DNA from: an uncultured Lachnospiraceae bacterium
GTDB taxonomy: Bacteria; Bacillota; Clostridia; Lachnospirales; Lachnospiraceae
Reading direction: 5' to 3'
Assembly (NCBI GenBank): GCA_902801415.1
Contig: CADCIK010000054.1
Location: 1-33,895, forward strand
Length of the DNA stretch: 33,895 bases
The translations under genes and the position numbers were made by a program. Positions 28,195 to 30,180 of the stretch are shown piece by piece (position 1 is the first letter of the stretch; the number at the start of each line of letters is the position of its first letter). The notes below the pieces were generated by a model that was given only the letters and a program-made list of their open reading frames with translations, did no database searches and was not told the origin of the DNA.

Positions 28195-28277
28195 GGTTTT
28201 AGAAAACAAAAGGGGATTGCACAAATGCACTGCGATCCATTCCAATACATTTTAAGACTTACGGGGAGGAAACAAAA

Positions 28278-28454
28278 ATGAGAATGAGTGATACAATTTA
28301 TTTCGATAAGCTGACTGATACACACAAAATGCCCGAATGGATCCGCGCAGAGCGCTATGAGTACTGCGAAGACTTCTACGGAAGTATGACTGAGGACAAG
28401 AGCAAGAGCTTCTTCGCAAGACTGCTCACCACCATGACAAGCATCTTTGCATAA
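28278..28454 (+). CDS. 58-residue orphan protein
   Basis: The start ATG 28278 follows GGGGAGGAAAC at good spacing and the frame ends at TAA 28454. The product begins MRMSDTIYFDKLTDTHKMPE and ends FFARLLTTMTSIFA. It is charged in the first two thirds, with YEYCEDFYG in the middle, and has a hydrophobic C-terminal tail; no transmembrane helix is long enough to be sure. I do not recognise the family. It has its own promoter and a strong terminator 33 nt after the stop, so it is a single-gene unit. The array of repeats at 28590 lies just beyond the terminator. Confidence 0.75.
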   Translation: MRMSDTIYFDKLTDTHKMPEWIRAERYEYCEDFYGSMTEDKSKSFFARLLTTMTSIFA

Positions 28455-28487
28455 TTGATCTGCAGCTTACTAAAGCTTGATTAAACC

Positions 28488-28531
28488 AAGCCGGCGTATT
28501 AAGAATTTTTTCTTAGTACGCCGGCTTTTTT
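28488..28531 (+). terminator. Strong terminator after the small orphan gene
   Basis: AAGCCGGCGTA (28488-28498) pairs with TACGCCGGCTT (28517-28527), extended inwards by TTAAG/CTTAG-like pairs, and is followed by TTTTTT. It isolates the small gene from the array that follows. Confidence 0.92.
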
Positions 28532-28589
28532 GTGTCTGGATGGGATGCTTCTTGAACCGGTGTACTGGCTTTGAATTCTGTGGATGCGA

Positions 28590-28984
28590 TTTAGGTACAA
28601 ATGACCGATTTCGATGAGATGTTCTCCATGGCTTTGATGGCTGCGGCAGCGTTAGGTACAGAGAGCAAGTTTTGATGAATTGTTCTCCATGGCTTTACTG
28701 GTTGCGACGGCTTTTAGGTACAGACAGCAACTTCTGATGATTTGTTATCCATGGTTTTGATGACTTCCGGCCGGGTTTAGGTACAGAAGGCAGATTCTGA
28801 TGAAATGTTCTCCATCATTGTCGAGATAATTAGGAACTCTTCTTGTAAAATTTGTTGCTGTACCTAAAGCAGCCAAAAGCTATGGAGAACAAATCTTTAA
28901 GAGGCCACGCTTGTACCTAAACTCGCTATAAAACGGGAAAAGTCATGGAGAAAAATTCATACGAAACCTTCCCCTGTACCTAAA
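28590..28984. repeat. Bipartite repeat array, four forward and three inverted units
   Basis: Forward units start at 28590, 28651, 28713 and 28776 (TTTAGGTACA, one with G first). Each is followed at exactly +31 by GTTCTCCATGGCTTT or a close variant (28621, 28682, 28744, 28807). Inverted units start (minus strand) at 28868, 28921 and 28984 and keep the same +31 offset (28890 and 28953; the one for 28868 is degenerate). The 21-nt spacer is partly conserved (GCA and TGATGA) in the forward copies. The forward period is 61-63 nt, not a multiple of 3. The two groups point toward each other around 28820. No long open frame fits. A degenerate partial unit may lie just upstream (GGCTTTGA at 28567). The stretch 28455-29148 has no gene. 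Confidence 0.85.
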
Positions 28985-29010
28985 GCATAAGAGTGCCGCC
29001 GGCACAAACA

Positions 29011-29038
29011 AAAAACAGACTCCAACGAGTCTGTTTTT
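29011..29038. terminator. Bidirectional terminator at the end of the array
   Basis: AAAAACAGACTC (29011-29022) pairs perfectly with GAGTCTGTTTTT (29027-29038) around CAAC. It ends transcription of the oxidoreductase on the minus strand and any transcript from the array on the plus strand. A small hairpin GTGCC/GGCAC lies just before it (28993-29005). Confidence 0.92.
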
Positions 29039-29073
29039 CATCATCTGCATAGCAAAAACAACTGATCACTTTG

Positions 29074-29150
29074 CTTCACAACCACTTCGCAATTGCTTCG
29101 CAGCCACTTCGCAACCGCTCTACAGCCGCTTCGCACCCGCTTCTCGCCTC
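29074..29150. repeat. 11-nt tandem repeat ending at the oxidoreductase stop codon
   Basis: Seven consecutive 11-nt units with consensus CTTCGCANCCR (29074, 29085, 29096, 29107, 29118, 29129, 29140), partly degenerate. The last unit reaches the stop codon (29149-29151). The period is not a multiple of 3 and the repeat stops at the gene, so it is non-coding. Confidence 0.75.
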
Positions 29151-30123
29151 ACCTCGCCTTAATCCCCGCCTGGATCCTCGCCCTGTTCAGCACTTCGTTG
29201 ACCGCAAGGCTGTGCTCGAGCTGCTTATAGCAGAAATCATGATCCTGCTCATCGATCGCGCGGATGAACTGCCTGAACTCAGGAATCATTCTCTTCTCCG
29301 CGTAGTGCTCCTCGGCCACCTCGCAGGTACCGTCCCGCAGCTGCAGCGTGACGCTGCCCACCTTGTTGGGCGTCATCTCGCTCTTGATAAAGCCGTTTGT
29401 GCCCTGAATGATCGCGCCGCTGTCGCCGTTGCAGTCCTTGGCCGCGATACATACAGCCGTGAATTTGGGATACAGCATCATGAGCACGCCGCTGGTGTCG
29501 ATGTTCCTCTCCATGTTAGGGAAGTAGGAAATGCTTTCCGGCCTGCCAAAATACTGCATGACATAGTGGATATTGTAGAGATTGAGGTCCATCAGCGCGC
29601 CGCCGGACCTTTTGGGATCAAACGCAGGCGCAATAATGCCTTTCTTGAAATTGTCGTAACGGCTGGAATACTGGCAGAAGCGGCTCTGCACGATCTTGAT
29701 ATCGCCAAGAAGCGGCAGCCATTCGCGGATCTTGCGGTATCCTTCCATGTAGACCGTAGTAATTGCCTCAAACAGGAAGAGTTTCTTTTTGCGGGCAAGA
29801 ACCGCAAGGCTCTCCGCCTCTCCCGCATCATCTGTCATAGGCTTTTCGACGATGACATTCATTCCGTTTTCAAGCGCTTTCCTGCAGTATCCGAAATGAA
29901 GATTGTTGGGAACTGCCACATAGACAGTGTCGATCCCCGTCGCACACAGCTCGTCCAGATTCGATACAGCCTTAGGAATCCCGTACTGCTGACTGAGCGC
30001 TTCCGCCTTGGCAAATCCGCTGGGGCTTCCCATGATCGAGAGGATCTCGAGCCCTTCCATTTTGACCAGTTCCGGAAGAAACTCCTTCACGATCATTCCT
30101 GTCCCGATAATTCCAAGTTTCAT
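29149..30123 (-). CDS. Gfo/Idh/MocA family oxidoreductase
   Basis: 324 aa from ATG 30123, which follows AAGGAA; the open frame continues upstream but without family features. The N-terminal Rossmann fold has GIIGTGMI (4-11), and the conserved EKP at 93-95 holds the Lys. The second domain has GGALMDLNLYNIH (174-186), the usual position of the Asp and His that act on the sugar. It probably oxidises or reduces a sugar or polyol derivative with NAD(P); the substrate is unknown. It follows the UbiB-like gene after about 125 nt that hold a tandem repeat. Confidence 0.9.
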   Translation of the reverse strand: MKLGIIGTGMIVKEFLPELVKMEGLEILSIMGSPSGFAKAEALSQQYGIPKAVSNLDELCATGIDTVYVAVPNNLHFGYCRKALENGMNVIVEKPMTDDAGEAESLAVLARKKKLFLFEAITTVYMEGYRKIREWLPLLGDIKIVQSRFCQYSSRYDNFKKGIIAPAFDPKRSGGALMDLNLYNIHYVMQYFGRPESISYFPNMERNIDTSGVLMMLYPKFTAVCIAAKDCNGDSGAIIQGTNGFIKSEMTPNKVGSVTLQLRDGTCEVAEEHYAEKRMIPEFRQFIRAIDEQDHDFCYKQLEHSLAVNEVLNRARIQAGIKAR

Positions 30124-30180
30124 GGCGTGTTCCTTTCTCTCCAATAACTTCCGATAGCTCTTTGGGGGATCCCGTCCCAT

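Follow-up and report, generated by a model that had tools for sequence, protein, structure and literature searches.

Convergent, helically phased repeat arrays and a linked gene for a putative nuclease in a Lachnospiraceae genus

Introduction

The locus described here raises the question of what a non-coding series of precisely spaced, oppositely oriented repeats is for. It was found in a stretch of 33,895 nucleotides, hereafter the window, that makes up positions 1 to 33,895 of contig CADCIK010000054.1 from an uncultured Lachnospiraceae bacterium (assembly GCA_902801415.1). A preliminary description made from the sequence alone had pointed out bipartite repeats with a fixed internal offset, and had offered as possible roles a protein reading both boxes on one face of the DNA, a site of recombination or integration, a replication or partition site, a regulator sink, or a folded RNA. 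It knew of no published element with this layout, and we likewise found none described in searches confined to open-access text. To our knowledge, partner enzymes have been identified for only a few families of bacterial repeats, chiefly RAYT for REP.

Results

The array in the window

Seven copies of TTTAGGTACA (box A) are present within positions 28590–28984 of the window, six of them exact and one, GTTAGGTACA at 28651, with a single mismatch, so that the seven copies originally counted stand at their place but not all as perfect matches. With one mismatch allowed, box A occurred on average 0.49 times in shuffled sequences, and none of 100 shuffles reached seven. The second box (box B) is exact GTTCTCCAT in four units, carries one mismatch in two (at 28744 and in the outermost inverted unit) and is degenerate (GTTCCTAAT) in the innermost inverted unit; the six second boxes first reported are thus obtained only when a mismatch is tolerated, and the degenerate seventh was seen correctly. 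The offset from A to B is 31 nt in all seven units, as had been claimed. Spacer rigidity was not forced by the search, because a flexible pattern (spacers of 18–26 nt) applied to the window's genome returned 18 matches of which 17 had the same spacer, the remaining one being shorter by 1 nt.

Four forward units are followed by three inverted ones facing them, in agreement with the orientation first proposed. The forward units, which unit scan and arm clustering place in an alpha arm on the plus strand, are F1 at 28590–28629 (TTTAGGTACA-N21-GTTCTCCAT), F2 at 28651–28690 (GTTAGGTACA-N21-GTTCTCCAT), F3 at 28713–28752 (TTTAGGTACA-N21-GTTATCCAT) and the innermost F4 at 28776–28815 (TTTAGGTACA-N21-GTTCTCCAT). 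A central spacer (28816–28828) separates two facing B boxes. The beta arm on the minus strand opens with the innermost unit R1 (28829–28868, from the unit scan), which has the degenerate B box and has similar degenerate central counterparts in five other arrays (L232, L237, L234, L238 and L301). It continues with R2 (28882–28921), 53 nt from R1 and so one helical turn below the usual 61–63 nt, and closes with the outermost unit R3 (28945–28984; TTTAGGTACA-N21-TTTCTCCAT), again from unit scan and arm clustering.

No ORF of at least 80 aa overlaps the array. Of the two strong terminators that had been proposed as borders, the left one was recovered by a terminator scan as an intrinsic terminator with an 18-bp stem and a T run (28488–28527, plus strand); the right one is a 12-bp inverted repeat flanked by A/T tracts (29011–29038), which the same scan did not list and which is probably a bidirectional terminator. 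The terminator at 28488–28527 and those flanking L232, L237 and L300 have a common TTAAGAA..TTCTTAA-like stem core, and may represent either the common terminator type of the species or a part of the element. Upstream lies a 58-aa ORF without Pfam match (28278–28454, plus strand), probably outside the system, and on the other side a neighbouring Gfo/Idh/MocA oxidoreductase gene (29149–30180, minus strand) converges on the array. Three 22-nt direct repeats (29071–29136) are located between the array and this gene.

A family of convergent, phased arrays

The check for recurrence suggested with the original observation gave a positive answer, as the same architecture was found in at least four genomes: the window's own (G000), its congener RUG477 (G024), RUG006 and RUG13128, the RUG names suggesting a rumen origin. 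A position weight matrix detected 223 units in 33 stretches from these four genomes (304,873 bases), and the same stretches read in reverse, used as controls, gave none. Two arms were present in 31 of the 33 stretches, L317 and L321 being one-armed and left out of the following counts, and all 31 pairs of arms converge on one centre, with no divergent pair among them. The spacing is strongly constrained: of 158 same-strand spacings, 137 measure 61–63 nt, 15 measure 50–53 nt and two 73 nt, with single cases of 78, 82, 86 and 124 nt. Since 17 of the 21 spacings outside 61–63 nt are off by about 10 nt, or one turn of the helix, the deviations mostly lie close to full turns. Across the centre, the distance from A to A measures 90–92 nt in 29 of the 31 arrays, 100 nt in one and 165 nt in another, the latter being the decayed array L236.

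The unit consensus derived from the weight matrix is TTAGGYACAG-N8-TTT-N8-TGTTCYCCAT. Since GNACA is common to box A and to box B read as its reverse complement, and the TTT lies close to the dyad, we read the 39-bp unit as an imperfect inverted repeat. When spacers were clustered blindly into two groups without use of orientation, 26 of the 31 arrays separated into pure alpha and beta arms (the mixed ones being L301, L236, L303, L305 and L315). Spacers are 68% alike within arms and 36% between arms, and the array therefore has an alpha and a beta end. Likeness of spacers within an arm, together with two opposed arms, does not fit a CRISPR array.

An exact pattern with loose spacer yielded at least 115 stretches in genome contigs, nearly all of them single chance matches as judged by spacer length and title; unit scanning of seven such loci identified five as arrays (L110, L116, L124, L137 and L169) and two as not (L144 and L156). 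In viral contigs the same search gave 92 stretches, nearly all single chance matches, and a tighter pattern gave three single matches; searches of plasmid and phage DNA for the array returned no match. In a sample of 397 genomes from across the family, the exact pattern was confined to the window's own, a count that carries little information on diverged forms. Within the genus, sequence models detected related arrays in 12 of 62 genomes (first unit model, E 0.01) and diverged arrays in 11 of 62 (second model, E 0.001), the own genome included in both counts. The genus arrays that were fetched keep the convergent layout, and their boxes are mostly TTGGGCACAG..TTGTTCCCC.

A gene between arrays

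In five genomes (G033, G013, G078, G080 and RUG477; loci L341, L345, L352, L353 and L357) two complete arrays flank one gene encoding a 278-aa protein, and in the window's genome the corresponding gene on contig 86 (L394) is likewise flanked by arrays, whose A boxes read TTTAGGTATGG and GTTAGGCACAG and whose B boxes contain TCTCC. Only this gene was seen between arrays, and since both flanking arrays are complete in the five loci, the arrangement does not fit a homing endonuclease. Homologs of the protein occur in 35 of the 62 genus genomes at E 1e-3. Among about 100 homolog matches, the best-scoring and some weak ones were examined at 45 loci, and all 45 genes have an uninterrupted reading frame as far as the alignment extends; some other copies have stops or are fragments, L349 being a broken copy.

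The protein contains the motif SKSE..PDF..WEH, and R165, S166, K167, E169, E186, P198-D199-F200 and E214-H215 (L353 numbering) are invariant in 34 aligned proteins, among them the acidic residues E169, D199 and E214. The motif is what we take to be PD-(D/E)XK. The PADLOC models PDC-S68 and HEAT_CxxC_PDDEXK match 34 and 26 of the 34 members, respectively; their C-terminal domains correspond to the same nuclease-like domain, but the PDC-S68 profiles span about 1200 positions, whereas the proteins found here are stand-alone, 241–293 aa long and encoded beside arrays. Pfam and NCBIfam gave no family for the protein, the 34 members having neither Y1_Tnp nor any shared family in Pfam, and PDB sequences gave no significant match. 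The nuclease role is therefore drawn from the motif and the likeness to PDC-S68 C-termini: the C-terminal domain is predicted to be a PD-(D/E)XK-like nuclease, and the N-terminal half presumably resembles arm-type DNA-binding domains. No relatives of the protein were confirmed in viral contigs. Distant homologs were found on three human-gut scaffolds labelled as phage, of which the two fetched are linear and unannotated. Seven plasmid records, from Rhizobium, Vibrio and others, likewise contain matches to the domain, in proteins whose annotation reads AAA ATPase or RecQ.

Array and gene tend to occur together. Homologs of at least 45% identity were found in nine of the 11 array genomes vs four of the 51 others (p=1.7e-6, with the threshold chosen afterwards), and at E 1e-3 in ten of 11 vs 25 of 51 genomes without such arrays. 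One genome, G022, has array units and no homolog, and the homolog genomes without seen arrays may have arrays whose boxes escape the models. Kinship among loci makes this and the other p-values given here optimistic, and both the identity cut and the tandem-repeat cut used below were set after seeing the data. When boxes of lone arrays were compared with those of gene-flanking arrays, as a test for cognate pairs, similarity was highest within the own genome in only two of six genomes by either measure (G000 and G024 by all-pairs mean, G024 and G036 by best-match mean).

Tandem repeats beside the gene and its diverging clades

Of the 45 examined genes, 28 (in 21 of 28 clades at 60%) have tandem repeats no more than 1 kb away, as compared to five of 47 control loci (p 2.5e-7; five of 42 when neighbouring regulator loci are also taken out of the controls), flanks shorter than 400 nt and low-complexity repeats having been dropped; at the other 17 gene loci none passes the threshold. 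The base periods were read by eye, since one best lag in each of L410, L409, L416, L419, L413 and L432 is a multiple of a shorter period and that of L405 is twice 20. Counted once per clade and period, the 18 values above 40 nt fit multiples of 10.5 (R 0.80) without any offset. For all 28 periods R is 0.55, and the ten shorter ones (14–40 nt) fit helical phasing poorly. Near-perfect tandem repeats of unrelated sequence, with best lags of 52, 64, 84, 106 and 126, were also noted beside more distant nuclease-like members (L411, L413, L423, L427, L429, L431 and L432).

A second type of array has boxes TTCGGYACAG..CGTCC and a period of 94 nt, or nine turns, and is likewise convergent (L362 1203–1544, L345 13–331, and L400/L401 on either side of the gene). 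In G078 and G033 such arrays flank a nuclease-like gene whose product is about 55% identical to that of L353. The different types meet at one conserved place, a home site between a UvrD-type helicase gene and a GntR/aminotransferase regulator gene, where Pfam supports only these broad assignments and which we take to encode HelD and MocR. The nuclease-like gene occupies this site in seven genomes (G000, RUG477, G080, G013, G078, G033 and G003); G007 has the regulator in the opposite orientation, and in G036 the two flanks belong to separate contigs. Three gene clades are found at the site together with different arrays, of 62–63 nt in RUG477, 61–62 nt in G000 and 94 nt in G033 and G078. Because one conserved site thus carries different nuclease clades with different arrays, arrays and protein may diverge together.

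Dispersal and conservation of the arrays

The window's genome has nine dispersed arrays, one remnant and two arrays beside a gene. Some arrays have been copied around the genome, as paralogs at unrelated places match up to the outer A box: L299 6695–7085 and L300 3351–2972 are 82% identical over 392 nt, and in this pair as in L232/L305 similarity ends no more than a few nt from the A box. Other arrays have stayed in place, four of them occupying the same position in G000 and RUG477, although the unit counts of the two genomes differ. A further sequence of 240–285 nt, lying outside the arrays proper, is shared next to arrays of RUG006 and RUG13128 (L323 5320–5558, L324 4626–4910 and L320 3798–4075).

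In eight orthologous pairs of arrays, boxes are identical at 872 of 935 positions (93.3%), spacers at 906 of 1072 (84.5%) and linkers at 637 of 761 (83.7%), with a p of 1.7e-12 for the box effect (7e-13 without the pair L310/L317), and the flanks are 87.3% identical. L317 lacks the centre and beta arm of its ortholog L310, half of the array having been lost. The box effect has an odds ratio of 4.9 in the four G000/RUG477 pairs, where both genomes keep the gene, and of 1.5 (p 0.03) in the four less diverged RUG006/RUG13128 pairs, the latter not being significant without L310/L317 (odds ratio 1.6, p 0.08). The conservation of boxes above spacers and the spacings quantised at about 10 nt support the early suggestion that a protein recognises the two boxes from the same side of the helix.

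The main rival to a partnership between arrays and nuclease, itself doubtful, holds that the arrays are MITE-like elements of a transposase, with the outer A boxes as terminal inverted repeats, the inner units as transposase sites and the gene as a passenger or neighbour. The paralogs that are alike over their length and end at or within a few nt of the A boxes, as terminal inverted repeats would, agree with it, as do arms that are polar like transposon ends and arrays of which none overlaps a gene called by our own gene scorer. A partly similar MITE is BrickBuilt of Porphyromonas gingivalis, an intergenic element present in 19 copies in one strain (PMC4596501). Like the present arrays it has inverted ends and is built of tandem repeats inside, but these are 23 nt long without spacers, and its abstract describes neither convergent arms nor a linked nuclease (PMC4596501). 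Against a MITE, inspection of 15 arrays (which may be old) by eye revealed no target-site duplication, no examined locus carries other genes between its arms, the broken arrays (L317, C48:6259, L321 and L313) being truncations or contig ends, and the four arrays shared by G000 and RUG477 stay put while their unit number changes.

Next, and improbable, comes a BIME-like host site, at which a nucleoid, topoisomerase or partition protein would bind the phased units, the link to the nuclease being secondary. BIME-2 elements of enterobacteria are intergenic arrays of alternately oriented units built of REP hairpins, with possible protein binding; they are alike in forming intergenic arrays and differ in having no polar two-arm layout with a fixed centre. 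Phasing, boxes conserved at fixed positions, and nine arrays in one genome that in G000 and RUG477 often lie between convergent genes are all consistent with such a site. However, of 27 loci (out of 33) with both neighbours called, ten lie between convergent, 13 between co-directional and four between divergent genes; convergent supercoiling is therefore no rule, and gyrase binding between convergent genes, considered as a general rule, is ruled out by these counts. The patchy distribution, with arrays seen by the model in 11 of 62 genus genomes, is also unlike that of a core host function.

Gain and loss of gene and arrays

The two flanking arrays form direct repeats, 79–91% alike, at eight of the 45 gene loci (L341, L345, L352, L353, L357, L395, L415 and L430); L415 and L430 belong to distant clades and have other repeat sequences, with lags of 52 and 94. 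At the remaining 37 loci the flanks are not long direct repeats; for L393, L407 and L409 the best match between the flanks is inverted, and the rest have no long match. The block of array, gene and array also occurs downstream of a radical-SAM gene, which we presume to be YgiQ although Pfam backs only the radical-SAM assignment: it is present in G080, G078, G033 and G013 and absent from G003, G067, G000 and RUG477, where both flanks can be aligned. The empty site of G003 consists of 18 nt between two convergent stop codons and holds no array copy. What RUG006 retains of the gene is a C-terminal stub for the last 33 residues (82% identical), next to a convergent array with a period of 62–63 nt (L433 1031–1584), and RUG13128 has arrays with no match to the nuclease-like gene; in these two genomes either the arrays persist longer than the gene or the MAGs are missing sequence.

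Genes between long direct repeats might also suggest a selfish, restriction-modification-like gene inserted with a long target duplication, the arrays being duplicated targets that later degenerated, a reading we consider very unlikely. Restriction-modification genes flanked by long direct repeats have been described (PMC3031569, citing Nobusato 2000), and the eight direct-repeat loci are of this form. The present case differs from that system in that no methylase ORF accompanies the array-flanked gene of G033, G013, G078, G080 and RUG477, and in that the repeats are structured arrays which also occur alone. The reading leaves the phasing, polarity and box conservation of lone arrays unexplained, and the empty site of G003 has no array copy in its 18 nt. 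A folded RNA or single-strand DNA hairpin as the working form is very unlikely and the least probable of these readings. The whole array does fold better than its shuffled versions, with z of -7.6 and -7.4 for the two strands, as expected of an inverted repeat. Against such a form, the window has no Rfam match at gathering score and no promoter-like site in 28200–29200, an alignment of 60 units has no consensus pairs (which rules out an RNA stem joining boxes A and B), spacers of opposite arms are only 36% identical and some arms differ by 10 nt in register; the folded RNA offered in the preliminary description is accordingly not supported.

Discussion

We think that the arrays are candidate protein-binding sites, and that the protein binding them is most likely the nuclease-like protein encoded between such arrays. 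The closest known parallel is REP/REPIN with RAYT, in which non-coding repeats, scattered between genes and arranged as inverted pairs or as arrays, are likewise linked to one endonuclease-type gene; dispersed intergenic copies and a linked gene are both found here, the nuclease identity of the product being predicted. RAYTs are HuH/Y1 enzymes. Two defining features of REPIN-RAYT, the Y1 enzyme and the hairpin unit, were not found: the 34 members of the nuclease-like family have no Y1_Tnp Pfam match, and whereas REPs are short hairpins, the units here are 39-bp dyads without a unit hairpin, helically phased and set in polar, convergent arms. Tandem arrays of REPs are also on record (PMC3116915).

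We therefore favour, with a probability of about 0.5, a partnership similar to that of REPIN and RAYT between dispersed arrays and a putative nuclease, with an unrelated enzyme and an unrelated architecture. In such a partnership the units would be stacked on one DNA face with the alpha and beta arms pointing at the centre of 13–14 bp, the N-terminal half of the protein would bind the boxes as an oligomer, and the bound protein would bend the DNA or bridge the two arms over the centre. The C-terminal domain may then cut at or near the array, and repair of the break or recombination between arrays could copy arrays, or the whole block of array, gene and array, to new intergenic sites. A role in recombination or mobility, as first suggested, is plausible, since similar arrays flank the nuclease-like gene as direct repeats. 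Lone arrays such as that of the window would be non-autonomous copies, or remnants kept as binding sites. Recombination between the direct repeats around the gene could remove it and leave a lone array, by analogy with solo LTRs; the empty site of G003, without an array, is unlike this outcome.

A broader and more tentative proposal, which we consider possible, is that these loci represent a new class of genome parasite or partner, in which a small putative nuclease with a DNA-binding half is paired with clade-specific, phased address arrays whose copies are scattered between genes. The array periods of the clades, near 4, 5, 6, 7 or 9 helical turns, would be part of this picture.

A second repeat-enzyme pairing, unrelated to the first, would help to tell which features (dispersed sites, fixed geometry, a linked nuclease) let repeat families persist in small genomes. 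The helical quantisation of the arrays amounts to a strong prediction on the bound complex, and the clade-specific arrays would provide a natural set of matched pairs of protein and DNA site. The putative partner, moreover, belongs to a nuclease-like family that matched no Pfam or NCBIfam family and is common in the genus, with homologs in 35 of 62 genomes at E 1e-3.
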